Positions 17,411 through 63,082 of a stretch of 64,000 nt of DNA are shown here, piece after piece. The stretch is taken from NCBI GenBank assembly GCA_033065855.1, contig JAVXUO010001562.1:496001-560000 (forward strand). The letters run 5' to 3'. The notes under the pieces are model-generated. The model did no database searches. It was not told the origin of the DNA and was given only the letters and a program-made list of their open reading frames with translations. Every line of letters starts with the position of its first letter. Position 1 is the stretch's first letter. A program made the translations under genes and the position numbers. This stretch comes from Escallonia rubra (taxonomy: Eukaryota; Streptophyta; Magnoliopsida; Escalloniales; Escalloniaceae).

Positions 17411-18319
17411 TCATAAATAATATTTCTTTCGTTCCAAGTTATTTAATCAAGTTTGACTTACACGTTTATTTAGGATATGAGTCATATGTTGTGAGTTTTT
17501 CATTTTATCCCATATATATATATGAGAGAAAGGGGGGGGGGGGGGGGAGGGAGAGTAGGCCAGTAGAGAGAAAATGAGTTGACCGATGATCAAATGTGAA
17601 AAGAGAAATAGATTAAAAAAAGTGTGAAAATGGTAACTCTCTCATTTTATCCCAAATATTTATTTCCATGCTTATATTTAAGTTCATTTTGAGATTTTAA
17701 TGACATTTTTTCATTATCATGGTTAAATTTTAGAGTTGGATTGTGAATGATATGTTTTGAAATCATTTTTTTTTTTAAATATTTCCTAATCATGGACAAC
17801 TCGCATATAGCTCGCGTCCAACCCGTGTCCACCAAAATTTTGATGGGCTTGGTGTGGACACATATTTTTTGGCCCGTAAATGGGCTGGGCTGAACGTGGG
17901 CACGACTTTTGGAGAGCGGGTTGGTCGTGGTCTAACCCTTAGGCCCGTCCAGCCTGCTCAAGTTGCACTCCTAATTATCGGGGTGCAATTTGATTACTTC
18001 CTAAATTTAAAAAGATTCTATAGATGTTTTTTCATAAAACATAAGAGTCTCTAATCGTATAATAAGAAATAAAGTAAGAAAAGTAAAATCTTCAAAGATC
18101 TCTAAACATGAACGAAAAGTGGGAACCGTCGCCCAACCTGGTTTAGAAAAATAAGACAAGAATATGAGCATACATTTGCCTTTGAGGCTTTGACTTTGTC
18201 GAAGTGGAGGCTGAGAGTTCAAAAAGTATAAAAAAAAATATATTATTTTATTCGATTAAGAGTTTGACGGTCAAGATTGCATAGATTTATGCGATCCACG
18301 GTTTTTAATGACTCTATAT
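17411..18319. other. Unassigned AT-rich sequence with a hAT end remnant
   Basis: Contains a poly-G run near 17534-17548. At about 17780-17975 there is a GGGCTGGGCTG/GCCCGTCCAGCC-rich stretch ending CAAGTTGCACTCCTA, which resembles the hAT end at 29995-30183. Nothing else is recognised. Confidence 0.5.
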
Positions 18320-18425
18320 ATATAAGGACGCGATCCACTGCCAGCGCAGGCAAATTAGTTTTCTTGCTAAGGCGATCTGGCCATTTATCTGTGATTTATG
18401 GACGGTCCAGATTAAATCTTCTTTT
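18320..18425. mobile_element. Solitary TIR relic of the large MULE family
   Basis: Reads GACGCGATCCACTGCCAGCG, then GGCAAATTAG, CTTGCTAAGGCGATCTGGCC and ATGGACGGTCCAGATTAAAT. This follows the order of the left TIR of the 9.35-kb MULE that starts 1.7 kb to the right, at clearly lower identity. It is either an old decayed relative or the end of a truncated copy. Confidence 0.7.
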
Positions 18426-19172
18426 TCAATAGTGCTAGATAACCCTAGTACTTTAACATATTTGTATTATAGCCCCAAAAATTTAAAAAAATATTATTTT
18501 ATGCACCCTAATACTTTTTCACATACAATATAAACATAGAGTTATTTCATAATATAATGCTACTTACAGAGATGCTGCTCTTGGTCCTTGAATGTACGCC
18601 CGCCATGCTTCTCTCGTTGCTTTTCGATATCCAAGTTTTTCACCAAGTGGACACACAGCTCGTTGCCTTACGTTTCTCAGATTTGGCTAATGGTTATTAT
18701 CAAACACTTTCAAGCCTTCAGGATATTGGTTTGAAAAATACAGTAGAAGACGTCATACTATACTGAAATCAATACCTCTTTATTTATACTGAAAATGAAA
18801 TATTACATAGGAGGAACAGAAAGGAATGTTTCCTTCTATTGTTGCACACTCTAAATCTTAGCACACTTCACACTCTTAGATTACTTCACACTCTTACACA
18901 CTTCACACTCTCTCAGACTTCCTCTGCCTTCTAGCTCTTACTTCGTGGATTAGTGGTATTTACCACTCTAATTAGGCTCTAATACCAATTTTGTATGGCC
19001 AAATTCTCCTTTGGTCAGGAATGACATGTTCTAATCTTGAGAGAAGTCAATTTTAGTCTTTTGAGAAGTATGAGTGGTTTTAAGTGAACTGCTGAGAAGT
19101 TGAGGGGTTGAAAATAAAATTAGCCAGAGAGCTGGCAACTTGTATGTATATATATATATATATATATATATA
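18426..19172. other. Unassigned sequence; includes a segment duplicated at about 35866-35960
   Basis: Contains repeated CACACTCTTA words (18845-18920). The 100 bp from TCTTTTGAGAAGTATG to GCTGGCAACTTGTAT (about 19054-19152) is repeated at 35866-35960 beside a second copy of the next element. A GGCTCTAATACCAA motif at about 18973-18986 resembles a reversed tRNA-Met primer site of a copia-type fossil, but no LTR pair is visible. Confidence 0.4.
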
Positions 19173-20105
19173 GGGGAAAGCAAATATAAGGCTAGCCTCG
19201 CACAAGTTGCGTGAGGTTAGCAATCAAAACTACGTAGTTTTGACCCAAACAAACATAATTAATTTTTTTGTCTCTTTTTCTCTCTCTCTCTCTCCCTGCC
19301 CCCTACTTTTCTCTCTTCCCTTCTCTCTATTGCAGGCCTGTCTTAGCAAGCCACAGCCACCATCATACCCTCCATGCCGTAGACCACCCATCTTCAATCG
19401 CAGGCCATCCCTGCCGCAAATAGTTTCCACCACCCACATCTTCTCGCCGCTCAAATTTGGCGAAGATGAGGGCGGAGATGGGTTGTCATTCACTGCTGCA
19501 ATTATCATAATCCCGATCTCCACTGCTATAATTGTTTGCCGCTGCCTTCAACATCATCATGCTGAGTATTCGGTGGTGGTGGTAAAGGGTTCAATGGTGA
19601 CGGTGGTGGGTTTTCTATGTTGGTGGAAGTGGTTTGATTCACTTGTGGCGGTGGTTGATCTCTGTGATCCCGGTGGTCCTTAGTTGTGAAGGTGGGTTGG
19701 TGCGGCGAAGAAGCACCTTAAAGATGGTAGGCCGATGGTGTAGTGGTGGCAAGCTGATACTGTAGTGGTGGTTGATCGGGGTTCAATAAGTTGCGGTGAT
19801 GGTGGGTTAGGATTCGAAAGGTCACGGTTGTGATGGTGGATCAATGTTTGGAGGCTCACGGTGGTTGTTTGTGGATGCAAAGCATAGATGGTAGGTGAAG
19901 CGATTCAAAGTGGTGGTGAATCGACTGGTGGCAACAGCGACAGTGGTGGGTAGTGGGGGTGGGCTGGATAGCGGGTGAGAGTGAAAGAAAGTTAGGGAGA
20001 AGAGAGAGAAAAAAGAAAAAAAGTTTAAGAAATTTAACCAAAACTACGTAGTTTTGATCGCTAGCCTCACGCAACTTGCGCGAGGCTAGCCTTATATTCG
20101 CTTTC

Positions 20106-20108
<3 letters not shown>
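19173..20108. mobile_element. Non-autonomous TIR element, copy 1 (0.94 kb), inserted in a TA microsatellite
   Basis: Long TIRs of about 85 bp start GGGGAAAGCAAATATAAGG and contain GGCTAGCCTCGC and AACTACGTAGTTTTG. Both sides are (TA)n, so a 2-bp TA or a 9-bp all-TA duplication cannot be told apart. Long TIRs favour a MULE; the TA favours a Tc1/mariner MITE. The interior has CT-rich and GGT-rich parts and no transposase. A second copy lies at 35984-36894. Confidence 0.8.

Positions 20109-20167
<59 letters not shown>
20109..20167. repeat. TA microsatellite
   Basis: About 29 TA units separate the TIR element from the left end of the large MULE. A similar tract lies just outside the right end of that MULE. 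Confidence 0.95.
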
Positions 20168-20169
<2 letters not shown>

Positions 20170-20410
20170 GAGCTGATCCCTTGACCGCGTAGGCAAAATA
20201 AGATATCTTGCCAGCGCGATCTGGCCGTCCATCCCGAAGGGATGGACGGTCCAGATCACTTTTTTTTGCGGCGCTGTCAGTCGTCCGCTACACAGTCTCG
20301 CGGACGGAAATGTTTACCATCTTGCCCTCGCTCCCCCGTCCGCTACACAGTCTAGCGGACGACATTCTTGGGCCAACAAAAAGTAGTCCGCTACACTGTC
20401 TAGCGGACGA
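20168..20410 (+). repeat. Left TIR of the large MULE
   Basis: Matches the inverse of 29272-29514. It contains a perfect hairpin GTCCATCCC/GGGATGGAC, a TTTTTTTTGCGGCGCTGTCAG stretch and three copies of the element's palindrome. Differences from the right end are few: the first bases, a base or two near AAATGTTTACC, and the third spacer. Confidence 0.92.
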
Positions 20411-20515
20411 CTGTGTCCGTCAAACCACCCACTTCCCCCTGACAGTTGTCACATCAGTCGATGCACGTCTGTTACTTTGTCGTTATCCCAGCGTCCGCAA
20501 CACAGTGTAGCGGAC
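20281..20515. promoter_or_regulatory. Four palindromes in the left end, upstream of the PMD-Ulp1 gene
   Basis: Copies near 20284, 20337, 20388 and 20490 have arms GTCCGCTA and TAGCGGAC (one arm each varied to CGCGGAC or GTCCGCAA) around cores such as CACAGTC. They lie 400-640 bp before the ATG at 20920, with a likely leader intron between (acceptor TTATTTCAG at 20910). A regulatory or transposase-binding role is inferred. Confidence 0.75.
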
Positions 20516-20919
20516 GTTGGCAAGCATTCGAATACTTCTAAACTTCTATTCATTCCTTCTTCTCACAATCAAACTATTCCTTCTTCTCACAATCAAACTA
20601 TTCCTTCTTCTCACGATCAAACCAGCGGCGTTGGCAAGTAGATCGGCGCAATTTCTTTGCAAGAAATCCTTTAATCGTCTCATCAATCACGTAAGTTCAC
20701 AAACTAATCCTTACTTTGTTCATAATCTAGAGTTCATCTTGCGGCGTTGGCAAGTAGATAGGCACTATGCTAGCGTTTGTCAATGTATATACATATATAT
20801 TATATATGTGTATTGCGTATTATCTGATCACATGCTAGCGCTGAATATGCTAGCGTTGTATGTTTGGGAATGTTTACGCTTCCAACCTTGCCCTCTTTCC
20901 ATTATTTCAGTTGCAAAAA

Positions 20920-23900
20920 ATGGATTTCAACCCTGGACCAGAAGATTCGTCCGTATTATATGACCAAGCATCCCATATCAGTACGCTCATATGGGATGGT
21001 GGAGTAAGATACTTATTTTATCGTTTATATCGTTTATTTTGCTTACGTATTTCAGTTGCGAACGTTGTATAGTGTTTATTTTGCTTAAATAATATTTATT
21101 AATTCGTAGGAAAGAGCACTTGTCAACACGGTAGAAGTAAGCGATAATTTCAACGCCTGGAAATTGAACAGAACCCAGAAAAGATTACTGCGTGGGATTG
21201 GGTTTGGGATTTTCACGCATGGGCAGATCTTTCAACAACTTGACCGGCACTTAATAGGTGCCCTTGTTGAAAGGTGGAGAAGTGAAACGAATACGTTTCA
21301 CTTCCTTCTCGGAGAGATGACAATTACCCTAGAAGATGTAGGGTTCATCTTAGGGTTACCGGTGACGGGGCGGCCGGTAATAGCTCATCCGTCCGAAGCA
21401 ACGAATAAGAGGACCGCTAGGGACTTCTTTACTTCGGTACCCCAGGATGGATTTAGCAGTGGTGGTATCAAGTTGAAGTGGTTGGTAGATACCTACGGGG
21501 TTTTGCCGGAAAACTATACGGGCCATGACCTTGTGCTGTACACACAAGCCTTCCTCTTGTGGGTGATGGGGGCAATATTATTCCCAACGACGTCGAAGAA
21601 CACGGTCAGCGTCAAATATATACCGTTTTTGCGTAACCTGGCTGAGGTTGGGGATTATGCCTGGGGTGCAGCAACTCTTGCATACCTGTACCGAGCATTG
21701 CACAAGGCAACGAGGCCCGACTCCAAAGCGATATGTGCATGTCTCTCGCTATTGCAGGTATATCATACAATTCTTCATTACGTGCTCTTTGTTGTTTTTT
21801 TTTGTTGTTGAATGGACAATAAATGTTGACGATACTTTTTTCAATGTCTTTGCTCTCAGGTGTGGTCTTATGAACACCTTGCTACCGGCGCACCCAGGCG
21901 TAGGGACGGAACAGATAATGTGTGGCCTCGGTTGTGCGCCTGGGAGTACAGCCGGAAGGAAACCCACTACGAGAGGAGAGACGATCCCCATCACAACATT
22001 TCATACTATCGGGGGGAGCTCGACTCGTTATCTCCTGGCCAGATGCGATGGGCACCGTACAAACGTTTGGCGCGACGGGTGGGAGAGTCGTTCGTCTTCA
22101 CGCTCTCCGGGTTGCAACGCACACCCCTGATCCACTTCGAGGTCGCAGAGTGGCAGCTGCCGGATCGCGCTATGCGCCATTTTGACTGCCTGCAGGGGTT
22201 GCCAGCCGGTGCGCCAGATATGAGGCTTAACAGGAACCCACCGGGTGTCGGACTGTTTGGCAGGGCGAATGCGCACGAGTTGTGCGCGCGTGAAATTGAG
22301 GTCTGGAATTCTTGGCAGGACACGCTGGCGGCCATTGTGTCGGAGCCTGACCCCGTCATCAGTATCGAACAGTACAACGAGTGGTACTACCGCATCACCC
22401 GGAGGAGAGTAGCTCCAGTAAGGTTTGAACGCGGGGAGAAGTACCACCCTAGGGGTCAGATCGATGAGCACATGGCATACAATCTGGTAAGTTGCCCAAC
22501 CAGTGCTTCTAATTGAACTTGATCATTCTAAGTGTGTACGAAGTTACTTATTTATTATCTCTCTGGATGTAGGTTAATGCCTCGTTCGCCTTCTTCCAGA
22601 AGTTGAGCGAGCGGAAGGATTTGGTGGATGCCATGGGCGAGGAGCTTCGCCAACAGGCTGAAGAGTTGGTGGTTGGCTGCGGGAATTTTTTGCGGCAAGC
22701 ATCGGGACAGCCAAACCCGGGAATGGGTTATCCGGGGTGGCAGCGGCCGTTTGTTCCCGAGGGATGCACCGATCCCTCGGGACAGACTTCGGGAGTGAGC
22801 CAGGGATATGGTTTTCCCTCTGTACCAGAGATGGCTGGTGATTGGGGACCGCCAAGCACCATGGGCCAGGCTCAAGCGCCGTGGGATTATTACAGTGCGC
22901 CCTCCTTCTCTTTACGATTGGATTCGGAACCCCAACCCCTCTCCCAGAGTCAAGTCACGCAAGACTGGATTTTAGAAAACATCAGTCTGCCCATTGTCCC
23001 GTGGGCAGGACCATCTATTGCCGAAGGCGGGCAATACCCCCCCGTTGACCCCCCTGAAGGAGTGCAATATCCCCCCGTCGACCCCCCCGAAGGAGTGCAA
23101 TATCCCCCCGTCGACCCCCCCGAAGGAGTGCAATATCCCCCCGTCGACCCCCCCGAAGGAGTGCAATACCCCCCGGTCGACCCCCCGGAAGGAGTGCATT
23201 CTCCCCCTGTCGACTCGCCCGAAGGAGTGCAATACCCCCCGGTCGACCCCCGAGGGCAATATCGCAAAGGGCATCCGTTGAAGCCCCTAAAGCCGCAGAA
23301 ATGCCAGATAATCAGAGAGCGTTATTTTAGCGGCGTCCCGCATGACCAAGCGTTGTATAGTGTGGATCATCCGGAGGGCATGGATTACATTTGCTCGTGG
23401 GGAGAACTGGCCTCGCTGGCTCCGGGGAGTTGGTTAGACACCGGTGTCGTCTCCACCTACGTGGAGATTCTGAGGGAAAGGTGTCGGCAGCAGCCGAGCT
23501 ATCCGGCCGTTTTTCTGTTCGATGCCTTTTTTCATCAGATGCTAGTGTCTGAATGGCAGGAGTGGGTCGAACATAGGGGGAAGAAAAAGTTGGCCCAGTG
23601 GAGACCGTCCTTTAACCTAGGAGCATATATTAATAGGGATAGTCCGGTGAGCGCAAGTGTTGCCGATGTGTTTCTAATCCCATTTCTAGGGCACAGCCAC
23701 TGGTACTTGGTTTGCTACTCCCCAACAACTAAAGTCGTATCGGTGATCGACAGTCTCCACGACGATACTCATCAGATGCCTGTGCTGCACATGTACAAAG
23801 CCCAATTGGACGCGTTGGTAATATTACGATCGCTGTATAATTCTCTGATTCTATCTTGCCATAAATTTTAACTCGTGTCTTACGCCATTTTCTGTTTCTC

Positions 23901-24216
23901 GCAGAATATTTTTTGTGCAATGGTCAATCGTGCCCGTGATGTCCCCGTACCGGCGCGGCCAAATCTCAATAGGCGATTGAAGAAGAGGAGGCCCAAGCAA
24001 CGTAACACTTCGGACTGCGGCGTCTTCCTTTGCATGTACATGGATTTCATTTGTCGCTCTGAGAGCCTCAAGGCGGCCGTCTGGAGCCAAGCAGAAGTTG
24101 AAGGCTATAGATATAGAATGGCTTGGCAAATTATGAAAGGCCGGCCTAGAGCGGTTAGGTTTATAGAAAATCCGGCTAATGACGAGAATCCGGCCCAACA
24201 TGCGGACCCCAGTTGA
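20920..24216 (+). CDS. Plant mobile domain (MAIN-like) - Ulp1 cysteine protease fusion carried by the MULE
   Basis: Five exons (20920-21003, 21110-21757, 21860-22486, 22573-23817, 23905-24216), all phase 0 with GT/AG borders, give 971 residues with no stop. Residues 1-450 are a plant mobile domain: MDFNPGPEDSSVLYDQASH, then HFLLGEMTITLEDVGFILGL and the YLYRALHKA region. Residues about 605-680 are a proline-rich tandem repeat. The C-terminus is a C48 (Ulp1/SENP) protease with His in GHSHWYL (about 825), Asp in VIDSLHDD (about 845) and Cys in NTSDCGVFLCMY (about 905), so the catalytic triad is present. Ulp1 proteases cleave SUMO from targets; PMD proteins are linked to silencing and often occur in transposons. 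In this MULE it is a passenger gene, convergent with the B3 gene. Substrate and role are unknown. The start was chosen because MDFNPGP is the usual PMD start and it follows a good acceptor. Confidence 0.9.
23025..23255 (+). repeat. 33-bp in-frame tandem repeat (EGVQYPPVDPP) in the PMD-Ulp1 linker
   Basis: About seven 11-residue units EGVQYPPVDPP lie between the PMD and protease parts; later units change to EGVHSPPVDSP. The unit length is a multiple of three, so copy-number change keeps frame. The repeat is likely a flexible spacer and probably length-variable between copies. Confidence 0.9.
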
Positions 24217-24389
24217 AATTGTATCATAACAGTAGTTTTTACATAAATCGTACGCAATTGGTGTGATTTGATTTGTGTTGTCGTTGGTGTGATTTGATTT
24301 GTGTTGATTTCTGTTGTCGAATACTGATTTTTCTGATGACGTAAAATGAAGACCAAATTTTTCTAAGTGTCGGTAACAGAAGTTTCTGC

Positions 24390-25300
24390 TGCGCCGTCCG
24401 CTACATTGTATCGCGGACGTAAAATGAAGACCAAATTTTTCTAAGTGTTGATAACAAAAGTTTCTGCTGCGCCGTCCGCTACATTGTATCGCGGAGGTAA
24501 AATGAAGACCAAATTTTTCTAAGTGTTGATAACAAAAGTTTCTGCTGCGTCGTCCGCTACATTGTCTCGCGGACGTAAAATGAAGACCAAAAGTTTCTGC
24601 TGCGCCGTCCGCTACATTGTATCGCGGATGTAAAATGAAGACCAAATTTTTCTAAGTGTTGATAACAAAAGTTTCTGCTGCGTCGTCCGCTACATTGTCT
24701 CGCGGACGTAAAATGAAGACCAAAAGTTTCTGCTGCGCCGTCCGCTACATTGTATCGCGGATGTAAAATGAAGACCAAATTTTTCTAAGTGTTGATAACA
24801 AAAGTTTCTGCTGCGTCGTCCGCTACATTGTCTCGCAGACGTAAAATGAAGACCAAAAGTTTCTGCTGCAACGTCCGCTACATTGTATCGCGGAGGTAAA
24901 ATGAAGACCAAATTTTTCTAAGTGTTGATAACAAAAGTTTCTGCTGCGTCGTCCGCTACATTGTCTCGCGGACGTAAAATGAAGACCAAAAGTTTCTGCT
25001 GCAACGTCCGCTACATTGTATCGCGGAGGTAAAATGAAGACCAAATTTTTCTAAGTGTTGATAACAAAAGTTTCTGCTGCGTCGTCCGCTACATTGTCTC
25101 GCGGACGTAAAATGAAGACCAAAAGTTTCTGCTGCGCCGTCCGCTACATTGTATCGCGGATGTAAAATGAAGACCAAATTTTTCTAAGTGTTGATAACAA
25201 AAGTTTCTGCTGCGCCGTCCGCTACATTGTCTCGCGGACGTAAAATGAAGACCAAAAGTTTCTGCTGTGCCGTCCGCTACATTGTATCGCGGACGTAAAA
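24390..25300. repeat. Palindrome array between convergent genes: about 14 palindromes in 133-bp higher-order units
   Basis: Palindromes with arms GTCCGCTA and CGCGGAC and core CATTGTA or CATTGTC recur, each followed by GTAAAATGAAGACC. They alternate in a short and a long spacing (about 54 and 79 bp), making a 133-bp unit repeated about five to six times (24550, 24685, 24818, 24951, 25084, 25217). The array lies between the stop of PMD-Ulp1 (24216) and the stop of the B3 gene (25414). Open frames across it are only by-products of the repeat. Confidence 0.93.
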
Positions 25301-25413
25301 TCCAAATTTTTCGAAGTGTTTATAACAAAAGTGTATTTCAAACGACACAATTAAGCGAGGAAAAATTTCGAAACACAATCAACAAGAACTCAAATAATTT
25401 TATTAATCATAAA

Positions 25414-25877
25414 TTAGGGTTCACATTGGGGGAAAGAAATTTTTTCACAAGTGCTCCGATCAAAGATTACAACTTCAAAATCCCACCACCCAAGGTGTTC
25501 AAATACTACAAAGTCCCCGAGTTCGAGGCCATGCTGGCGCACGAAGACGTTCCAACCCTCTGCGAATTGCTTTTTTTGGGGTCGGCCGGGCTTCAGCTTG
25601 ATTTCAACCTGCCATGCCCCCTTGCGGCTATATAATCTTGCACTGTCATGAATTGTTGTAAATTGATTGGTGAAGGCTTCCGGTATGTCCTAACAAACAC
25701 AATACACAAAAAATAGGTTAGTTTTTAACCAAAAGATTTAACACACGAAAATACAGAGATAGAGGGATGGCATACAAGTTCATTCTCAAACCCCGGCATC
25801 ATGACTTTGAAAAAGTGTTTGCCTGCCAGGTGCAAGTTGCCAATAAAATCGTAGGTGGTCTCCGATCCAGAAGCCAT
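25414..25877 (-). CDS. B3 DNA-binding domain protein carried by the MULE
   Basis: Two exons on the minus strand: 25776-25877 (34 codons, MASGSETTYDF...MMPGFENEL) and 25414-25689 (91 codons plus TAA). The 86-bp intron has GT/AG borders and joins in phase 0. The 125-residue product is almost wholly one B3 fold: HFFKVMMPGFENEL, then DIPEAFTNQF (the L.IP..F strand), AWQVEIKL, FAEGWNVFVRQHGLELGDFV (the GW..F....L..GD..vF core) and WWDFEVVIFD. B3 domains bind short DNA sites in plant transcription factors such as REM, ARF and ABI3/VRN1 types. The gene lies between the palindrome array (behind it) and a five-palindrome cluster (before it). The B3 call is strong from the core residues. A single-domain REM/VRN1-like protein is the nearest guess. 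That it binds the element's palindromes is my inference. Confidence 0.88.
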
Positions 25878-26044
25878 CGAGGTCGGCGTTGAGGGGGGAC
25901 GGTTTATCGCCGGAGTTGTGGATCACCTGTGGGTCGCCGGAGATGGAGTATTGGCCTGGGCTAGATGTTCCAGACAGAGAGAGCAGAGAGACTGTTGGAC
26001 TGATAACAGCCGATTGCCCGATATGATTAATTTATATCATATAG

Positions 26045-26278
26045 ACTTATCCGCTACATTGTATAGCGGACATGAAAGGCCAAAAGTTATGACGTCCGCT
26101 ATATTATATAGCGGACAGTAAAGAAGACCAAAAGTTTGCCTGCTCTAACGTCCGCTACATTGTATAGCGGACGTACAAAGACCAAAAGTTTTACTTCGAT
26201 GCCACCCGTCCGCTATACAATATAGCGGACGTAAAAGACCAAAGTCAATGATGTCCGCTACATTGTATAGCGGACGGG
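26045..26278. promoter_or_regulatory. Five palindromes upstream of the B3 gene
   Basis: Copies near 26049, 26093, 26149, 26207 and 26253 have arms (G)TCCGCTA and TAGCGGAC and cores CATTGTA, TATTATA or TACAATA. They lie 170-400 bp before the B3 start and just beyond the stop of the transposase gene, where the B3 promoter must be. Several are followed by AAAGACCAAAAGTT, as in the big array. Confidence 0.8.
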
Positions 26279-26426
26279 GATTACAAAATAAAAGAAAAAC
26301 CTCGTAATAAAGACTTTAGATTTGATTCGATGGCCTCTCATAGGTCCATTTTAAAAAAATTCCAGTACCCGGTAGAAAAATTATCCCTCGAATATTATTA
26401 CAAATGTCATAAAGTTGTACAAAAAA

Positions 26427-28769
26427 TTAAAGGTCCACTGCAGCTTGTTCGTCCTCATCTTCGGCGTCACCTTCTTCCCCGTCTTGCAAACCCCTTGAAC
26501 TTATCCCCAGTGCCTTGTAATGGTTCCGCTTGTCGTGGTCGGTCATTTTGTTGCACAATGCACACCTTCGCAGCTTTTTAGGTTGAGTTGCCGTTTCAAT
26601 AGAGCTTTTCATCCGCGTAGATCTCTTGCGGCCTTTCGTTTGCGATATAATTGGATCCAACAAACGGATATCATTGTCGTCTTCCTCCTCCGGCTCGTCA
26701 TCTTCTGATACCCCCGTCGTAGGCTCGGTGTCAATCGCATTGGTGACTGAAGCTGCTTCCAACTGGTCGACGATGGGCTCTTGTTGCTGAGCTACCTCGA
26801 GGAGATGTTTATAACCGACCATTGTAGCAGCACCTTTTACGGACAAACGGGTGAACATCGTCACCAGATGATTATACCGCAGCGTCTCTGATTCTTCAAA
26901 GTCAGTATACGGGTGCTCCGGAAAGGAAATGGTACCGTGCAACCTGTTTGCACCTTTTGTCCACCGTGGCAAGACGTATTTATCGGGGATTGTCCTGATA
27001 TTCTTCTGGGTGAAAAACCGCAGAACGTGTCTACACAGGATGCCATGGAACTCAAACTTCTTGCAAACACATGTCACCGAGTCCGTCAATGTGTCGTGGC
27101 TCACCGTATACATTCTGCGCAGCTTCTCAGGGACTAGGTCATTCACGAGCGAATAAACCTTGTACTCACGCGTAGACATTTCTGCCACCTTGTTTATACT
27201 GTATCGTCCGGATTTTCGCAGCTCTACTTGGTATAGCAAGAAGATCTCCTTCGTATAGACTTTGGCACCGTTCATCTCCAGCGGGGTCTCGAGCAACGTT
27301 CTCCTTTGTTTGTACGTTGTTGCAAAGTCGGCAGCCCTTTCTTTTACGAACAACGAAGCTACCGCTTTTTGTGCGGATGCAACGAAAGTCTTCAAATTGG
27401 TAGCTGTACCCACATAACTATCGAACGTGGCATTCATGGATTCACTCCTGCCCGTCGTTTTCATGCCCGCTGAAAAATACCTCCTCGTGTAAACGCCAAT
27501 CCATTGCTCTTTGCGCTCGTACAAGTGCTGGAGCCACTCGTTGTCTTGCAATGAGTAATCCCGAACAAGCTTTTCCCACCTCTCCTCGAATTCCTCAATC
27601 GTTAACGACTTGAGGACGCACTTGTCAAAATCCTGTTTAAAGTCTTGATACTTTGCGTACACGTGATGCAGCCGTTCCGGGTATTTGTTGCTTATGTGCC
27701 AGGTGCACAAGTTGTGCCGAGTGTCTGGGAAGACGGTCGCAATAGCCTTCTTCATTGCCAAATCTTGATCGGTGATGATCACTTTGGGTGCTTTGAAGTT
27801 CATTGCTTCCAGCCACGTCCTAAACAACCATTCAAAAGAACTCTCGGTCTCGTCCCTTAACAAGGCGAACCCGAACAGGATGGAGTGATAATGATGATTG
27901 ACCCCCGTGAAAGGGGCGAACGGCATCGAGTACTTGTTGGTACGGTATGTGGTGTCGAACGTCACGACATCCCCAAAATGCTTATAAGCAAGCCTCGAAC
28001 GACCGTCGACCCAAAAAATTGTGCTAACTCGATGCTCGTCGTCAAGTTTATAATCGAAGGTCAACTGCGGGTCCTCCATCTGCATCCGTTTCAATAGGCT
28101 CATTGTGGCTTGAGCATCATTGAGGTCATACGCGGCTCGTCTATGGGTTCGGACCGCGTTACGAACGTCTGTCGTGTTAAAGGTCAAATTTTGAATTCCC
28201 CCAGCCTGTTCAGCAAGAACATTAATCATGTCGGTAGGTCCTAGTCGCGCATTGCTCATTGTCTGAATCAGGCTCCTTGCGACCTTACCCATCTTCTTGT
28301 GTTGATGCATCTCACTCACCTTAGAAGGGGTTACTAACGGGTGATTGTGTGCCAGTTCCAGGCTGGTAATAAGCCAATGGTCTTGTTTGGGTTTGTAGCT
28401 TACGAACATCTTGACCTGGCAATTTGTGCGCTCAAAGCAGTCCCGTCTTCTACGCGGATATCCTATTTCGTCCTCACTGTCATCATTGCCTACACATGTC
28501 TCATTTTGCACTGGGTTTCTGCTCCTATGGCACTCGTATAAGCGAGAGCATATCTTTCTCGTTATGGTGCTCGTTCTTGAAGTCTTTATTCTAATGCCAA
28601 AACCAACCCTCAATGAATACGCTCGAAAACATTCTTCAGCTTCTTCCAACGTAGCAAATGTTCGTCCTAGATACGGATCACTAGCATCTACGGGGACGTT
28701 GGAGCTCGACACGAAATCAGACATTGTGAAACAAGAGCTGTGTAGAAATAGACTGCGCTTAACAATCAA
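26427..28769 (-). CDS. FAR1/FRS-type MULE transposase (780 codons, likely start at 28724)
   Basis: Single open frame. An N-terminal FAR1 DNA-binding domain covers residues about 35-150 (GRTFATLEEAEECFRAYSLR ... CFERTNCQVKMFVSYK ... HNHPL). The MULE transposase domain covers about 265-360, with the first catalytic Asp in VVTFDTTYRTNKY, the second in VIITDQDLAMKKA and the C2H-type NLCTWHIS. A SWIM zinc finger sits at about 590-615 (CVCKKFEFHGILCRHVLRFF). The tail is acidic and then basic (SEDDEPEEEDDNDI). The length and order fit the FAR1/Jittery group of autonomous MULEs and the domesticated FHY3/FAR1 regulators. The methionine at residue 16 (MSDFVSSS) is the more natural start. The gene reads from the right TIR inwards; four palindromes lie 410-640 bp before it. 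Location between matching TIRs says transposase rather than a domesticated gene. Confidence 0.93.
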   Translation of the reverse strand: MIVKRSLFLHSSCFTMSDFVSSSNVPVDASDPYLGRTFATLEEAEECFRAYSLRVGFGIRIKTSRTSTITRKICSRLYECHRSRNPVQNETCVGNDDSEDEIGYPRRRRDCFERTNCQVKMFVSYKPKQDHWLITSLELAHNHPLVTPSKVSEMHQHKKMGKVARSLIQTMSNARLGPTDMINVLAEQAGGIQNLTFNTTDVRNAVRTHRRAAYDLNDAQATMSLLKRMQMEDPQLTFDYKLDDEHRVSTIFWVDGRSRLAYKHFGDVVTFDTTYRTNKYSMPFAPFTGVNHHYHSILFGFALLRDETESSFEWLFRTWLEAMNFKAPKVIITDQDLAMKKAIATVFPDTRHNLCTWHISNKYPERLHHVYAKYQDFKQDFDKCVLKSLTIEEFEERWEKLVRDYSLQDNEWLQHLYERKEQWIGVYTRRYFSAGMKTTGRSESMNATFDSYVGTATNLKTFVASAQKAVASLFVKERAADFATTYKQRRTLLETPLEMNGAKVYTKEIFLLYQVELRKSGRYSINKVAEMSTREYKVYSLVNDLVPEKLRRMYTVSHDTLTDSVTCVCKKFEFHGILCRHVLRFFTQKNIRTIPDKYVLPRWTKGANRLHGTISFPEHPYTDFEESETLRYNHLVTMFTRLSVKGAATMVGYKHLLEVAQQQEPIVDQLEAASVTNAIDTEPTTGVSEDDEPEEEDDNDIRLLDPIISQTKGRKRSTRMKSSIETATQPKKLRRCALCNKMTDHDKRNHYKALGISSRGLQDGEEGDAEDEDEQAAVDL

Positions 28770-29179
28770 ATGGCATTTCTAACTGAAAATATTACCTAAA
28801 AATTAGGATGGCAAACATACGGTATGCATAATCTCAAAAGTGTCTCCAAATTAACAATTACTAATTTAAATTTATTGAACATAACAAATTTAAATTAGTA
28901 AGATAAATAGACGAATTCATCATGCCAAAAAATCGAATTAAACTATAATGAATTAAATATAAAGTTAACAAATTATACCTTTTTGATGAATACAGTGACA
29001 AATTTCTAGAACATCAAGAAAACTTGAAGCAAACTTACCTTGCTTGAGCGAAGCTTGAAGCAAGTGTTACTCGAAGCTTGAAGGCAGCTGAAAATGGAAG
29101 CGAGTCTGAAGGAGAAGAAAATTGTGCTGAAAGAATTGAGTAGAAGAAAATTGTGCTGAAAGAAAGAAAATTGAGTAGT
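28770..29179 (-). promoter_or_regulatory. Upstream region of the transposase gene
   Basis: AT-rich, with no coding signal. At 29040-29170 there is a short tandem of GAAGCTTGAAG and GAAAATTGTGCTGAAAG words. It presumably holds the promoter and leader for the transposase gene. Confidence 0.5.
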
Positions 29180-29184
29180 GGGCA

Positions 29185-29402
29185 ATACTGTCCGCTATAC
29201 TGTGTAGCGGACATAATTGCCGACATCAAGTCACACTTGTGTCAGACCGTCACAGTTGTGTCAGAATGACAGTCGTCCGCTGGACAGTGTAGCGGACTAC
29301 TTTTTGTCGGAGGATGTCAGTCGTCCGCTACACTGTCTAGCGGACGGGTGAGCGAGGGCAAGATGGTAAAAAAATCCGTCCGCGAGACTGTGTAGCGGAC
29401 GA
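29185..29402. promoter_or_regulatory. Four palindromes in the right end, upstream of the transposase gene
   Basis: Copies near 29188, 29274, 29322 and 29378 have the same arms GTCCGCTA/TAGCGGAC and cores TACTGTG, GACAGTG or CACTGTC. Spacing partly mirrors the left end because three of them lie within the TIR. Confidence 0.78.
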
Positions 29403-29514
29403 CTGACAGCGCCGCAAAAAAAAGTGATCTGGACCGTCCATCCCTTCGGGATGGACGGCCAGATCGCGCTGGCAAGATATCTTATTTTGCCTACGCGGTC
29501 AAGGGATCACTTCC
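29272..29514 (-). repeat. Right TIR of the large MULE
   Basis: Inverse match of 20168-20410. It ends in GGGATCACTTCC and is followed by AAATTAGGAAAAAA and then a (TA)n tract. By chance or origin, GATCACTTCCAAATTAGGAA occurs again at 29671-29690 inside the neighbouring Stowaway element, which makes the exact right border uncertain by up to about 10 bp. Confidence 0.88.
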
Positions 29515-29529
29515 AAATTAGGAAAAAAA

Positions 29530-29539
29530 AAATATATAT

Positions 29540-29591
<52 letters not shown>
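29530..29591. repeat. TA microsatellite
   Basis: About 30 TA units with one GA interruption, right of the MULE end. Confidence 0.95.
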
Positions 29592-29611: not shown

Positions 29612-29985
29612 CTCCCTCCGTCCCTTAAAAAGTGATCAAATTTCCTTTTTGGGCCGTCCCACAAAAAGTGATCACTTCCAAATTAGGAAATATTCTATAG
29701 GTATTTTTACATATTTACCCTTTTTATATATTTTTTTATTCTATTTCTCTCACCACAATTAATTCTCTACCAACTCATTTTCTCTCTCCTGGCCCACCAC
29801 TTTACACTTCTTTATACTATTTCTCTCTCCACATTTAATACTCTACCAACCAATTTTCTCTCTCATGGCCCACTTTCTTCCCCCCTCTCTCTAAAGGGTA
29901 AAATGGGAAAGACACACAATATATAACCTAAATCCTTAATAGACGTGTAAAAAAAAATGGTTCACTTAAAAAGGGACGGAGGGAG
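29612..29985. mobile_element. Stowaway-type MITE (374 bp)
   Basis: Ends are CTCCCTCCGTCCCTTAAAAA and its inverse AAAGGGACGGAGGGAG, flanked by TA on both sides (29610-29611, 29986-29987). CTCCCTCCGTCCC is the classic plant Stowaway (Tc1/mariner) terminus. The interior has no coding capacity. Confidence 0.93.
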
Positions 29986-30538: not shown

Positions 30539-32696
30539 TCAAAGGGACGAGAAGATTGGGAGACCTGGGAGGGTGTAGCCCGCGTCAACAATGAAGACAT
30601 TGCCAGAAACATAACCTGAAGAGTCATCGATCAAATACCGGACAAGTGATGTCAACGCTGGGTCTGACGTACCAAAGGTTTGTAGAGGAACGGTCTTCAT
30701 CGCGACGTTCTTTAGCCAATCTTTCTTGATAAGGTCCTCAGTGATTTCAGATCTAAATAGTCCAGGAGCTACTGAATTCACTCGGATTTTGTGCATTCCC
30801 AGTTCTAGTGCCATTATCTGAAGTTATCAACACAATCACTAGAAGGAAGAGAACGCTATATAAATAAACGAGTTTCTTTCAATGAATTCTACATAAAGAG
30901 TACCAACTCGAACAAGTCCCAGAACTGAAAATGGCCATAATAATGTAGGCAGATTGGGTGGGGGTGAGGTGGGGACTAAACACATAGCCACACCTGTTGA
31001 TAAGTTGGCTAAAGGATCTCGGTATAAGGTAGTTTAGACTACTTATGTTAGACAAAAATGACATGACTGATTTAACACAAAACATACCATGGCATAGGGA
31101 GTTCTACGCCCTATTATGCCTTTCTACACTCTCGTACATTAATGTTATAATATACTCCACTTTTTAGCAAAAGCAGATCGATCATGGAAATATTAGATGC
31201 TCCATAGTTATAGTTTCATACCGCACCCATATGATTGCAAAGATATAAAAAGTTCACCTTTGTCAAGGTATCCATGGCAGCCTTTGAAGAGCTGTAAGCA
31301 GCTCCCCCACGAAGTTGAGCTCGGTTTAGACCAGAAATTGAAGTGATGTTGATGATTGACCCCCCTTGGCCCGCATCACGCATCCGTTGCCCCACATACT
31401 TTGACACCAACCAACTCCCTGTCAAGTTTGTCTTCACGACGACGTTCCATTCCTCCTCTGCCCAATCCAGCGAAGATTTTATGCTGCCTAAAACATACGA
31501 AACACGATGACTTGGTCAACAAAAATGGCACGTTTCTTTTGTTGTTGTTTGAGTAGCCTACTTCTTGGATTTTGAAATATGTTTATACCAATGCAGCACT
31601 GGAAAGAGAACGTCAAAAACAATTTTTGTCTCTTTTTTTTACTATTTTGACGTCAACTGAACCGCTTATCTTAGGACATACTGTACTTGCCAAGCCGTAA
31701 ACCTTCTAGAGGCGATTTGGAAATGTCCGTATACATGCTCCAGTAATTTTATGTCTATCTGTACGAAAATGCACATTGTCTTCTTCACCCCTTTGCGCTC
31801 TCTTTCTTCGTTTCAATTTAAAACGTAGAAGTAACACCCCTCACATTGTCATATATGCCGGATCGATCTAATTAAGTCTTTCCTATTTGAACATAAAGCC
31901 CTACTATGCTTGTATCGCGTCATTTATGCTAAACAACGTACAAAGCATTGAACTATCGTCCGACTCGGCTAAATTCACCCTTTTTTGTTATAAAAAAAGG
32001 CATTTAATTTTAGTAAAACTTTCAAACCCCTTATACTCGAAAAGGGTCTGGATTAGCCAAAAAGGAGTGCGGATTTACACTAACCCACGAAGTATTCAGC
32101 TTTTAACTACAAATGAGTCGTGGGTAATAACAATACGGTAGTTGTTTAGGCATTTCCGAAAAGATAATGTCACAAAATCGCCTTGATCCCCTTGGCATTC
32201 GAAGTATCGCCATAGCCTATACATTATACTGGCTTAGTTACACCCTTGCACTAACAACTGTTATCGCCAATTCTTACACTGAAGGAGAAGTTGCGACCAA
32301 AATTCCGGTGAAGCAAATGCTTACAAGATTACCTCTAACACCAGCGTTGTTGATCAAAGCGTCTATATGCCCAAAGGCAGCCCACGCCTTCTCTACAGAA
32401 GCTGAGATAGTGCGACCGTCGGCGGTCACATCGAGCTCAACGGCAATTGCACGAACGGCTTTTGTCATTGTACCATCACTGGCCACCTGAGGGTTTACAT
32501 CAGCAAGCTGGTTAATTTCCTCACAGAGAGACTTCAGCCGGTCCATTCTCCGAGCACCGGCAACAACCATGCAACCGGCTTTGGCAAGGTCCACGCAGAA
32601 CTCTCGGCCTAGCCCTGAGGACGCGCCGGTAACCATCACCACCTTGCCGTCCAGACGGCACCATGGCTCGAGCGGGTCTGGGACTTGGCTACCCAT
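30539..32696 (-). CDS. Short-chain dehydrogenase/reductase, FabG-like, copy A (intact, 290 aa)
   Basis: Three exons (32333-32696, 31258-31487, 30539-30817) with GT/AG borders join in frame to 290 residues. It is a classical SDR: the NAD(P)-binding TGASSGLG near residue 25, NNAG near 117, the catalytic Ser in [10 protein letters not shown], and YSSSK (YxxxK). It starts [20 protein letters not shown] and ends GLPIFSSL, like plant proteins annotated as 3-oxoacyl-ACP reductase FabG-like (about 280 aa). The true substrate is unknown, and the lack of a transit peptide argues against plastid fatty-acid synthesis. It is the only intact one of three paralogs in the window (B at 38720-39080, C at 53554-62765). 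A TATAAAAG box lies about 90 bp before the ATG. Confident on family, not on substrate. Confidence 0.93.
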
Positions 32697-32784
32697 TATC
32701 GCTTTCTTTCTTGTGCTATTCTTTTGCGTGGGTTATTAGTGGCTCTACTCTTGGTTGTGAAGAGAGACTCGTACTGCATGTCTG

Positions 32785-35948: not shown

Positions 35949-35983
<35 letters not shown>
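35716..35983. repeat. TA microsatellites and duplicated flank of the next element
   Basis: TA runs lie at about 35811-35857 and 35951-35983. Between them 35866-35950 repeats 19054-19145, so the neighbouring TIR element was copied together with at least 90 bp of flank. Confidence 0.85.
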
Positions 35984-35985
<2 letters not shown>

Positions 35986-36894
35986 GGAAAGCAAATATAA
36001 GGCTAGCCTTGCGCAAGTTGCGTGAGGCTAGCAATCAAAACTACGTAGTTTTGGCCCAAACAAACATAATTATTTTTTTGTCTCTTTTTCTCTCTCTCCC
36101 TGCCCCCTATTTTTCTCTCTTCCCTTCTCTCTATCGCAGGCCAGTCTTAGCAAGCCACAGCCACCATCATACCCTCCATGCCGTAGACCACCCATCTTCA
36201 ATCGCCGGCCATCCTTGCCGCAAATAGTTTCCACCACCCACATCTTCTCGCCGCTCAAATTTGGCGAAGATGAGGGCGGAGATGGGTTGTCATTCACTGC
36301 TGCAATTATCATAATCTCGATCTCCACTGCTATAATTGTTTGCCGCTACCTTCAACATCATCATGCTGAGTATTCGGTGGTGGCGGTAAAGGGTTCAATG
36401 GTGACGGTGGTGGGTTTTCTATGTTGGTGGAAATGGTTTGATTCACTTGTGGCGGTGGTTGATCTCTGTGATCCCGGTGGTCCTTAGTTGTGAAGGTGGG
36501 TTGGTGCGGCGAAGAAGCACCTTAAAGATGGTAGGCCGATGGTGTAGTGGTGGCAAGCTGATACTGTAGTGGTGGTTGATCGGGGTTCAATAAGTCGCGG
36601 TGATGGTGGGTTAGGATTCGAAAGGTCACGGTTGTGATGGTGGATCAATGTTTGGAGGCTCACGGTGGTTGTTTATGGTTGCAAAGCAGAGATGGCAGGT
36701 GAAGCGATTCAAAGTGGTGGTGAATCGACTGGTGGCGACAGCGACAGTGGTGGGTAGTGGGGGTGGGCTGGATAGCGGGTGAGAGTGAAAGAAAGTTAGG
36801 GAGAAGAGAGAGAAAAAAGAAAAAAAGTTTAAGGAATTTAACCAAAACTATGTAGTTTTGATCGCTAGCCTCACGCAACTTGCGTGAGGCTAGC
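35984..36894. mobile_element. Non-autonomous TIR element, copy 2, lacking its outermost right end
   Basis: Nearly identical to 19173-20070. Its right TIR stops at GGCTAGC and lacks the terminal CTTATATTCGCTTTCCCC. A piece of another left end follows directly (next entry). Confidence 0.85.
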
Positions 36895-38530: not shown

Positions 38531-38719
38531 AAACATACCATGGAATAGAGATAATGTCACAAAATCGCCTTGATCCCCATGGCATTCGAAGTATCGCCAT
38601 AGCCTATACATTATACTGGCTTAGTTACACCCTTGCACTAACAACTGTTATCGCCAATTCTGACACTGAAGGAGAAGTTGCGACCAAAATTCCGGTGAAG
38701 CAAATGCTTACAAGATTAC

Positions 38720-39080
38720 CTCTAACACCAGCGTTGTTGATCAAAGCGTCTATATGCCCAAAGGCAGCCCACGCCTTCTCTACAGAAGCTGAGATAGTGC
38801 GACCGTCGGCGGTCACATCGAGCTCAACGGCAATTGCACGAACGGCTTTTGTCATTGTACCATCACTGGCCACCTGAGGGTTTACATCAGCAAGCTGGTT
38901 AATTTCCTCACAGAGAGACTTCAGCCGGTCCATTCTCCGAGCACCGGCAACAACCATGCAACCGGCTTTGGCAAGGTCCACGCAGAACTCTCGGCCTAGC
39001 CCTGAGGACGCGCCGGTAACCATCACCACCTTGCCGTCCAGACGGCACCATGGCTCGAGCGCTGGGACTTGGCTACCCAT
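38720..39080 (-). pseudogene. SDR copy B: exon 1 only
   Basis: Exon 1 (361 bp, one codon shorter than copy A: VPALEPW instead of VPDPLEPW) is otherwise nearly identical, with [12 protein letters not shown] and the same donor GAG|GTAATC. The intron continues only to about 38531, where hAT sequence begins. Exons 2 and 3 with the catalytic Ser and YxxxK are absent from the neighbourhood. The promoter with a TATA box is kept, plus a GA microsatellite (39189-39209). If transcribed it could only give a truncated nucleotide-binding half. Confidence 0.9.
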
Positions 39081-39769
39081 TATCGCTTTCTTTTTTGTGC
39101 TATTCTTTTGCGTGGGTTATTAGTGGCTCTACTCTTGGTTGTGAAGAGAGACTCGTACTCGAACTGCATGTCTGCTTTTATATGCACAGAGAGAGAGAGA
39201 GAGAGAGAGGCGTGACTTGATCAGAGCTAGCATGTGATTGGGGACCACGCAGCTTGTCCTACTGGGCTGCTAATATCCAAGCAACAAATTTATCATGTCA
39301 AAGGACAATTCCCAGGTGGGGGAGGGCGTTCCGCATGCTTACAACAATGAATCACAATATTGTACACAAGAAGCACACATATGGGGGCTTTGAAGTTCCA
39401 GGTTGGAAGATGGAAGGCCCAAAACACATCTCCATCCGTTCAGCCTAAATATGCCTTCTTGGTTGCCATGTTTTCCATTTTTCATTTTGGCCCTCCTTAA
39501 TTACCATTTGGCTAATCCAAGCTCGGAGTAGTTATTAAAGTATGCTATAGAGCTCCAAAAAGAAACCTAAGGTGAGCTTAACATCTCATAAAAGGCACAC
39601 CTACTTTTTGCTAAAATTACAATTTCTGCCGAGATAAAAAGCTTTGCATTGAAGTTAGGAGGAAAAAAGTAGTATCAAACATCATAACAATTTGAATTAA
39701 GTTCAGAGAAGTGCTAAAAGTTATTTTCACTTGTACTGCTCCCATTTTCACAAATATGTGCAGAATTGA
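39081..39769. other. Upstream of SDR copy B, unassigned
   Basis: 39081-39235 is the promoter paralogous to copy A. 39240-39480 has a coding-like look (plus strand AYNNESQYCTQEAHIWG in one frame, FEVPGWKMEGPKHIS in another), but I do not recognise a family. The remainder is AT-rich. Confidence 0.4.
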
Positions 39770-46800: not shown

Positions 46801-47879
46801 CACTACAAGAAAAGAGGGAATTAGCGACGGACAAAATTCTGTCGCTAAAAGTCTTTTCAGAGACGGAAACAACCGTCGGTAAAAGTCTGTCGGTAAAAAT
46901 ATTTAACGACGGAATAATTCCGTCAGTAAACACACCCGTCGGTGAAAGTAGGGTTTTGCTGACGGACTTTTACCGACGGGTGTGTTCCGTCGGTAAAGGC
47001 CTTAAAAAGATCAAATCCCCTTTGCTTTTCTTTCTCCCGTTGCTCTCTCTCTCTCTCACCGGCGATATTTCCTCCGTCGCCATCCCCGGCAACCTAGCCC
47101 CCGACGGAATAGAGCCTGCCACCGCCACCGACGCAGCCACTGTCGCCCATCTTCAAAACCGAAGGACCGCCACCACCACTGTTGCGCCGCCACCACTGCC
47201 GCGCCGCCCATCTTAAAAAACTAGAGGTATGTACATCTAACCTTAACGTAATTTCATGCGATGATTTTGTGACAGCATGCGATGATTTTAGTTTGTGACA
47301 ACATGCGATGATTTTAGTTTCAGTATTGCGGATGTTTTGATCCAAGTCATGATTATTTGCTTTCGAATTATGGATCTGAAGATCCAAGTTTGCAATCATG
47401 GAGTGGTTTGTGCGTAATCTTAGCATCCAACCATCACGGGGTTGGCTCAAATGTGGTGTTCTTCGTCGCTAATTGAGTCATCCATTCAAATTTTTGTGTG
47501 ACTCAATGAGTCAAATGAGAAGTGTTGGGTTTTATTCAAATTTTATCTTAGTTTAAGTGGTTCCAAAGTAGTTTTACAATTTATATTCCGTTGCATTGGA
47601 GCTTGTTGTTCTAAGCAATGCTTGAATGGTTGCATTTGAATTAGGAGTAGGATTAAAATGTCTTTCCAATGAGGTAACTGTAATGGGCTCGAGGGTCACT
47701 GGCCCAGGCACATTTGACAATCTCTTACGGGCACTGAGTGCCAGGTCGTAATTGGTAAAATCAATACAAATTACAGCAAAAACTAAATTATGTACAACTT
47801 TAGATATGAAGTTCATTTCTAATTTCACTACAATCCTACATGATATAGCACTTATCGTACAACCCGAACATCAACGAAG

Positions 47880-48310
47880 ACGGTCCTGAAAGTTCATAGT
47901 ATTTCTCTTTAAACCCTAAATTGAATGTCTTAATCGAATCAAACCCTAAAGTAAACTATAGAACCCTTAATTGAATTCCCTAATCCAACCGAACCCTAAA
48001 TTGAACTTATTGAACCCCCTAATTGAATATCCCAATTCAACCGACCACTAAATTGAAGTAATTGAACCATAATTGAAATCTCAATTGAAGTAATTGAACC
48101 CTAATTAAATCCTAAATTGAATGCCCTAATCGAATCGAGCCCTAAATTAAACTAATTGAACCCCTAATTGAACCCTAAATTGAATGTCCTAATCAAATCG
48201 AACCCTAAATTGAACTAATTGAACCCCCTAATTGAACCCTAAATTTAATGCCCTAATTCAATCGAACCCTAAATTGAACTAATAGAACCCTAAATTGAAG
48301 TAATTGAAGT
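47880..48310. repeat. Minisatellite of AATTGAACCCTAAATTGAA type inside the CACTA
   Basis: Degenerate tandem units of roughly 25-50 bp built from CCCTAAATTGAA, CCCTAATTGAA and CCCTAATCGAATCGA. They sit just before the gene. The CCCTAAA words are telomere-like by chance; no true telomere repeat run is present. Confidence 0.85.
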
Positions 48311-48331
48311 AAATTTAATGCCCTAATCTAT

Positions 48332-49937: not shown

Positions 49938-50516
49938 TGAGCCCCTTCCCGTGCCCGTTCCTAGCTTCCCCCCCCCCCGCCTGGCTTGTACTCTTCTCCC
50001 CTCCCCTGACTGGCTGTATTCGGTTCCCGACTTGTACATATGAGTCTTTTTTATATTGAAATATTTTTTATAATTGATTATATATATTTCTTTCTGTATT
50101 GATTATTGCGCGTTGTTGTTGAGAAATGAAAATTGTATTACAGGTATGGGTAATTGAAAAATAAAAAAAAATTGATTTTTGGCGACGGATTAAATCCGTC
50201 GCTAAATAAGCTTTTTAGCGACGGAATATTCCGTCGGTAAAAATTATTCCGTCGCTAATTTTATAAAAAATAAAATAAATTAAAATACTAAAAATATAAT
50301 TAGCGACGGAATTCGTCGCTAATTAAAAATCAATCCGTCGCAAAAAAATACATATTTAGAGACGGAGTTCAAAATTCCGTCGCTAAACTATTGCTGACGG
50401 GCTTTTATACGAGGGACTTTTAGCGACGGTGAATCCGTCGCTAATTGTTTTAGCGACAGAATAAAGGCTTGTAGCGACGGATTTCCCCGTCGCTAAAAGC
50501 CTTTTTTCTTGTAGTG

Positions 50517-61184: not shown

Positions 61185-61400
61185 CGAGGTCGCGGAGTTG
61201 TGTCCGGGCGACGGGGGTCGCGGAGTTGTGTCCGGGCGACGGGGTCGCGGAGTTGTGTCCGGGCGACGGGGGTCGCGGAGTTGTGTCCGGGCGACGGGGT
61301 CGCGGAGTTGTGTCCGGGCGACGGGGGTCGCGGAGTTGTGTCCGGGCGACTCGTGTCGCGGAGTTGTGTCCGGGCGACGGGGGTCGTTTGAGTTGTGTGG
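61185..61400. repeat. Tandem GTTGTGTCCGGGCGACGGGG minisatellite
   Basis: About eight units of 28-30 bp (GTCGCGGAGTTGTGTCCGGG plus CGACGGGG). All frames are open through it, which explains long spurious open frames here. Confidence 0.92.
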
Positions 61401-62765: not shown

Positions 62766-63082
62766 TATCGCTTTCTTGTGCTATTCTTTTGCGTGGGTTA
62801 GAGGCTCTACTCTTGGTTGTGAAGAGAGACTCGTACTGCATGTCTGCTTTTATATGCACAGAGAGAGGCGTGAATTGACACGCTAGGGTTAGTTAAACTA
62901 GATGCTCTTAAAAGTTTATGTTTTTATTACACAACGTCCTCTTAAGGAACCATGAACAAAAGTTGGTGATTGTTGTGAAAAGCAGCGGTGGTAAATGCTT
63001 GGAAATAATATTTTTTTGTTTTCATTGTTAGATCGATAATTTCATTGTTGATTAACTAAGTATCATCATGTAAAAGATCAAA
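62766..63082. promoter_or_regulatory. Promoter and upstream flank of SDR copy C
   Basis: Paralogous to 32697-32852 plus 34150-34325, without the Harbinger-like insertion. The TATA region (CTTTTATATGCACAGAG) is kept. The match runs to TCATCATGTAAAAGATCAAA, where the next MULE starts. Confidence 0.8.

Follow-up and report, generated by a model that had tools for sequence, protein, structure and literature searches.

We analysed a 64,000-nucleotide stretch of Escallonia rubra DNA (contig JAVXUO010001562.1, positions 496,001 to 560,000 of the forward strand; hereafter the window), which contains a Mutator-like element (MULE) of ~9.3 kb extending from about 20168 to 29514. Three intact genes are enclosed by its pair of terminal inverted repeats (TIRs). 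A plus-strand gene (20920-24216) encodes, in five exons, a 971-residue protein that joins a plant mobile domain (PMD) to a Ulp1 protease domain; the minus strand carries a stand-alone B3 gene of two exons, encoding 125 residues, and a single-exon gene for a 765-residue FAR1-MULE-SWIM transposase. None of the reading frames has an internal stop, and the four introns of the PMD-Ulp1 gene and the one intron of the B3 gene are all of the GT-AG type. The non-coding share of the element is 40%, and it is here that we find what we think is its most informative feature, a 23-bp dyad present in 27 copies. The features, in window coordinates, are:

20168..20414, plus strand: left TIR, beginning GGGAGCTGATCCC and preceded by (TA)n
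20216..20260, plus strand: near-perfect hairpin fold within the left TIR (folding of the left copy)
20283..20515, no strand: four dyads (three within the left TIR, the fourth just past its inner edge), with starts 427-637 bp upstream of the PMD-Ulp1 ATG
20920..21003, plus strand: PMD-Ulp1 exon 1 (gene model)
21110..21757, plus strand: PMD-Ulp1 exon 2, plant mobile domain (gene model, Pfam-A)
21860..22486, plus strand: PMD-Ulp1 exon 3, plant mobile domain (gene model, Pfam-A)
22573..23817, plus strand: PMD-Ulp1 exon 4, peptide-repeat linker and start of the Ulp1 domain (gene model, Pfam-A)
23021..23251, plus strand: 33-bp tandem repeat of 7 units between PMD and Ulp1, encoding an 11-residue PPVDPPEGVQY-like peptide repeat
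23905..24216, plus strand: PMD-Ulp1 exon 5, with the Ulp1 Gln and Cys (gene model, SENP2 alignment)
24338..25332, no strand: tandem array with periods of 78, 55 and 133 bp, holding 14 dyads between the PMD-Ulp1 and B3 3' ends
25414..25689, minus strand: B3 exon 2, bulk of the B3 DNA-binding domain (gene model, Pfam-A)
25776..25877, minus strand: B3 exon 1 (gene model)
26049..26275, no strand: five dyads in the interval from the transposase 3' end to the B3 start codon, in part forming a 56-bp tandem repeat
26427..28724, minus strand: FAR1-MULE-SWIM transposase (gene model, Pfam-A, alignment)
29190..29400, no strand: four dyads upstream of the transposase start (three within the right TIR, the fourth just past its inner edge)
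29269..29514, minus strand: right TIR, its ~10 outermost bp uncertain

The pattern GTCCGC-N11-GCGGAC, allowing up to two mismatches, has 30 matches in the window against 0.58 expected. All 27 matches with no or one mismatch are located in the non-coding DNA of the element and none overlaps coding sequence; each of the remaining three has two mismatches, one lying inside the transposase gene and two near 61.2 kb, within a repetitive region. Similarly, all 28 window copies of the half-site CGTCCGCTA or its complement are inside the element, with none in an exon. Of the 54 window copies of the 6-base core GTCCGC, 47 are in the element, and one of those 47 is in coding sequence. With its flanks, the 23-bp dyad has the consensus CGTCCGCTACA-NN-GT-N-T-N-GCGGACG. 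The conservation of its arms follows partly from the search pattern itself. Of six additional pairs of positions beyond that pattern, three are symmetric in 27, 26 and 23 of the 27 copies. Four dyads stand upstream of PMD-Ulp1, five upstream of B3, four upstream of the transposase and 14 between the convergent PMD-Ulp1 and B3 3' ends. The original prediction for this DNA did not mention the dyad arrays.

The inverted repeat spans 20164-20414 and 29269-29518 (251 bp, 92.8% identity), and its outer run is identical at 135 of 135 bases (20174-20308 and 29375-29509). The hairpin in the left TIR has the arms GATCTGGCCGTCCATCCC and GGGATGGACGGTCCAGATC; the left copy was folded, and its right mirror lies inside the identical outer run. 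A (TA)n microsatellite flanks the MULE on both sides and is the only place where a perfect target-site duplication could hide, as no perfect 8-11 bp duplication is present outside it for left ends in 20155-20189 and right ends in 29490-29544. The best pair outside (TA)n, GATCCCTT/GATCACTT, is 8 bp long with one mismatch, but lies inside the TIR. At the right end, positions 29501-29525 share 24 of 25 bases with a repeat at 29666-29690, which leaves the right terminus uncertain by ~10 bp; terminal bases may be lost there, which could make this copy immobile. This downstream repeat (CTCCCTCCGTCC) looks Stowaway-like. The CpG observed/expected ratio is 1.07 in the element and 0.72 and 0.76 in the flanks. 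By this ratio the element is either young or little methylated, and the ratio does not choose between the two. Rfam gave no matches at gathering scores within the window.

In the PMD-Ulp1 protein, Pfam-A identifies the PMD (2.3e-72) and Peptidase_C48 (9.9e-14), both above their curated cut-offs, and no DNA-binding domain. Of the 287 protease residues compared, 45-261 align with SENP2, and the catalytic His, Asp, Gln and Cys are retained. VANC proteins, encoded by the VANDAL group of MULEs, carry the domain DUF1985, and a sub-threshold match to this domain falls at the same position in the window protein and in its two closest E. rubra relatives (E = 0.12, 0.24 and 0.16; 12.8 bits for the window protein, compared to a cut-off of 35.1). 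These relatives are P0122, 96% identical over 508 aligned residues of the PMD region, and P0123, 78% identical over 622. Compared by eye, exon junctions 1-2, 2-3 and 3-4 recur in P0122. The P0122 model (1040 residues) combines a transposase-like piece, 25% identical to residues 573-758 of our transposase, with the PMD and PPR repeats, and we take it as a fused gene model rather than as evidence of gene fusion. The PMD search gave 281 matches at E ≤ 1e-10 among 7993 scored candidates. Ulp1 is present in 0 of 120 PMD relatives among the matches listed; since candidates had to pass a length limit and share words with the first 500 residues, 0/120 leaves room for PMD-Ulp1 fusions elsewhere. The first 510 residues have no match among solved structures at E up to 1.

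The B3 domain scores above its curated cut-off (1.5e-10) and is complete, covering profile positions 1-100 of 101. A search of 5.77 billion sequences yielded two candidates and a single match, E. herrerae P0001, which differs from the window protein at 9 of 108 shared residues (92% identity) and has two extra residues. This match is not an obvious host donor gene. Thus relatives of both accessory genes, PMD-Ulp1 and B3, occur within the genus Escallonia. Among solved structures, six sequences match B3 at E up to 1, the best being VRN1 (E = 0.01), which weakly hints at a REM-type B3.

All three transposase domains exceed their curated cut-offs (MULE, PF10551, 3.6e-33; FAR1, 1.1e-12; SWIM, 5.3e-5). 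In an alignment of the window transposase with 10 of its 120 listed relatives, D257, D321, E380 and C340/W342/H343 are invariant and D319 is nearly so; the FAR1 zinc motif (C65, C102, H126, H128) and the SWIM residues C552/C554/C564/H566 are invariant as well. These include the catalytic and the zinc-binding residues. Of 7981 candidates scored in the sequence search, 1837 matched at E ≤ 1e-20, with an identity of 46% for the best of them, and the comparison with solved structures gave no match at E up to 1. A quick tree was built solely from database matches and the window protein; a length filter of 650-860 residues removed 23 of the 120 listed matches and left 97. In this tree the transposase groups with 22 others (SH-aLRT 100), the 14 named members of which are all from carrot or celery, on a long branch (0.93) of the kind whose placement the tree program rates as unsure.

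These data agree with most of the original prediction, which had described near-identical TIRs bounding 20168-29514, three open genes with good splice sites, and the expected catalytic residues in the protease and transposase, as parts of one autonomous-looking MULE. Its further idea, that the three genes work as one functional set, is a hypothesis. The transposase domain with its conserved acidic residues and the TIRs place the element in the MULE superfamily, and its sequence is that of an autonomous-looking TIR-MULE, by which we mean that the three genes and the TIRs are intact and nothing beyond this. A chance pairing of the TIRs was considered and rejected. A Pack-MULE, which by definition is without a transposase, was likewise rejected because the transposase gene is present and intact.

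The surroundings contain several further repeats. The (TA)n to the left of the MULE is adjoined by a 1-kb element (19143-20138) bounded by terminal inverted repeats of ~100 bp, and a copy of this element is found at 35953-36894 (97% over 949 bp). The diverged end of a related element at 18318-18426 also follows a TA repeat and has 72% similarity to the MULE TIR. An element at 46801-50516 is flanked by a 3-bp ATT duplication, and its ends, CACTACAAG...CTTGTAGTG, identify it as a CACTA element; another CACTA end is located at 35286. Both have subterminal dyads with the half-site TAGCGACGG, oddly near the MULE half-site TAGCGGACG. Reading frames at 32277-32732, 38628-39116 and 62328-62780 share a peptide and, by eye, appear to be copies of a short-chain dehydrogenase gene, a possible C-terminal exon of which (30539-30823) ends 1025 bp from the MULE. 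At 61192-61358, TCCGC recurs every 27-28 bp in what is apparently a GC-rich minisatellite.

We compared the element with known systems from the literature (PMC5418596, PMC5735166, PMC6446971, PMC13317346, PMC2528002 and PMC10398659). Jittery-like MULEs are similar in domain make-up, with an N-terminal FAR1 zinc domain, the MULE core and SWIM. Ulp1-bearing members, described in melon and in some grapevine families, also have Ulp1 coding sequence next to the transposase and are large, two grapevine Jitvine families measuring 11.9 and 14.4 kb (PMC2528002). In the Escallonia element, by contrast, Ulp1 is joined to a PMD, and a B3 gene and arrays of dyads are present as well; the passages considered on the Ulp1-bearing elements mention no B3 and no arrays of this kind (PMC2528002). 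It shares with Jittery group 36 the FAR1 N-terminus and SWIM, and its TIR falls within the 39-292 bp given for members of that group that have TIRs, for which, however, the table gives a single reading frame, whereas the Escallonia element carries three genes (PMC6446971).

The PMD was first described with a rice MULE and is found fused to MULE transposases in grasses and Amborella; a role for it in transposon anti-silencing was put forward as speculation (PMC5418596). As in our element, the PMD gene of PMD-bearing MULEs is antisense to the transposase (PMC5418596, PMC6446971). In the MULE survey rows covered, in contrast, PMD is entered under MuDR, VANDAL and related groups, and the Jittery group has an entry for FAR1 but none for PMD (PMC6446971).

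VANDALs resemble the Escallonia element in having accessory genes beside the transposase and non-coding motif arrays that spread by tandem repetition; their VANC proteins bind short motifs arrayed in tandem in non-coding DNA and induce the loss of silencing marks (PMC5735166, PMC10398659). VANCs furthermore have variable regions with tandem peptide motifs (PMC5735166), comparable to the seven repeat units of PMD-Ulp1. The differences are that in many VANDALs the TIRs are either absent or short and degenerate, although some have them (PMC6446971), and that the motifs described for VANC21 are 9 bases in one orientation, compared to a 23-bp dyad here. The Escallonia protein has a PMD, and its DUF1985 score of 12.8 bits does not reach the cut-off of 35.1 for this VANC domain.

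CACTA/En-Spm elements offer a further comparison; those of the window have repeated dyads near their ends. TnpA is a small DNA-binding helper protein of CACTA/En-Spm that acts at the ends of Spm. These elements differ in transposase, ends and target site, and the dyads of the Escallonia MULE also fill the internal intergenic regions.

Part of the novelty claimed in the original prediction does not stand, as Ulp1 in Jittery-like MULEs and PMD in MULEs have, in the sources above, already been published. The part that may stand is the B3 gene: we found no MULE with a stand-alone B3 gene in the open-access literature, judged partly by titles. Nothing was found there on DUF1985 together with a plant mobile domain. 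To judge from that literature, a Jittery-like Ulp1-bearing MULE that combines the fusion of PMD and Ulp1 with a B3 gene and its own dyad array is new.

We propose that the dyad is the site of an element-encoded DNA-binding protein, likeliest the small B3 protein acting as a dimer, which would mark the element as self and counter its silencing, with PMD-Ulp1 as the effector; we put the probability of this reading at roughly 40%. A dimeric reader is suggested because the dyad is symmetric, and B3 is our first choice because it is the smallest dedicated DNA-binding protein in the element. Spread over the arrays, the reader would flag the element as self and keep its promoters open against host silencing, much as VANCs do, and it may also assist the transposase at the element ends, as TnpA does for Spm. 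PMD-Ulp1 would then remove SUMO from silencing proteins at the bound DNA, or disarm them in some other way.

Several observations count against this proposal. Nothing links the dyad to B3 over the FAR1 domain or PMD-Ulp1, and known B3 binding sites are unlike CGTCCGCTA. The dyad is truly but not fully symmetric, for among the six extra pairs the remaining three are symmetric in only 10, 9 and 3 of 27 copies. Nor are the copies independent events, because the array and the TIRs are duplications: 14 dyads belong to one tandem array, and those in the TIRs are paired. The annotated models of both E. rubra PMD relatives lack a Ulp1 domain, which may be an annotation error or a true absence. Missing from the E. 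herrerae B3 model are 17 residues encoded by exon 1, among them those of the first domain strand, and with only two scored candidates a host donor of B3 could have escaped the search. An AlphaFold2 model of B3 made with no alignment had a mean pLDDT of 42.8 and was unusable. Finally, the CpG ratio of the dyad array is 1.70, which by itself raises the value for the element, and the high ratio of the element fits plain youth.

The FAR1 domain is the main rival reader, because eight of the dyads are within the TIRs or immediately interior to them and the CACTA elements of the window have subterminal dyads too, with a half-site of similar sequence. The dyads would in that case be transposase sites, bound by the FAR1 zinc domain at the ends for cutting and in the interior for regulation of the element's own genes, with B3 and PMD-Ulp1 as auxiliaries. 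The intact zinc motif is consistent with this. However, most dyads (19 of 27) are internal, and 14 of these stand between two 3' ends, where a transposase has no obvious use for them; on balance we consider this reading somewhat less likely than the one with B3.

PMD-Ulp1 could itself be reader or effector. As the reader it would be a VANC-like anti-silencing protein, with B3 secondary. According to a review, Ulp1 is present in some VANC genes. The variable tandem peptide regions of VANCs have a counterpart in the PMD-Ulp1 peptide repeat, and the DUF1985 match has the same position in all three proteins, that of the window and the two from E. rubra. But these matches are far under the cut-off and Pfam lists no DNA-binding domain in the protein, which makes this explanation improbable.

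More doubtful again is the idea that B3 is a captured host passenger and the dyads the result of functionless minisatellite drift. The capture of gene pieces is frequent in MULEs, according to a review, and a single B3 match from two candidates leaves room for such a history. Against this, the B3 gene of the window retains an open frame and good splice sites, and E. herrerae has an annotated protein 92% identical to its product; a narrow search for a donor gene found none; and the dyad occurs at four separate places, with linkers in the TIRs that differ from those in the array. That the TIRs come from different insertions, with the three genes neighbours by accident, would agree with the lack of a clear target-site duplication and with a right terminus that merges with another repeat, but we regard it as very improbable given the 135 identical outer TIR bases and a dyad that is common to both TIRs and every stretch between the genes.

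Returning to B3 as the dyad reader, we suggest more tentatively that this MULE recruited a B3 protein for self-recognition, that B3 together with PMD-Ulp1 counters silencing, and that the principle used by VANCs was here invented independently with another fold. To our knowledge, self-recognition and silencing escape of plant DNA transposons are known in detail mainly for VANDALs. This intact non-VANDAL MULE offers candidates for both reader and effector along with a 23-bp motif of sharp definition, and a simple binding assay could accommodate the dyad as well as the B3 protein, both being small. It would make directly testable whether anti-silencing through motif arrays evolved repeatedly, with different DNA-binding folds.

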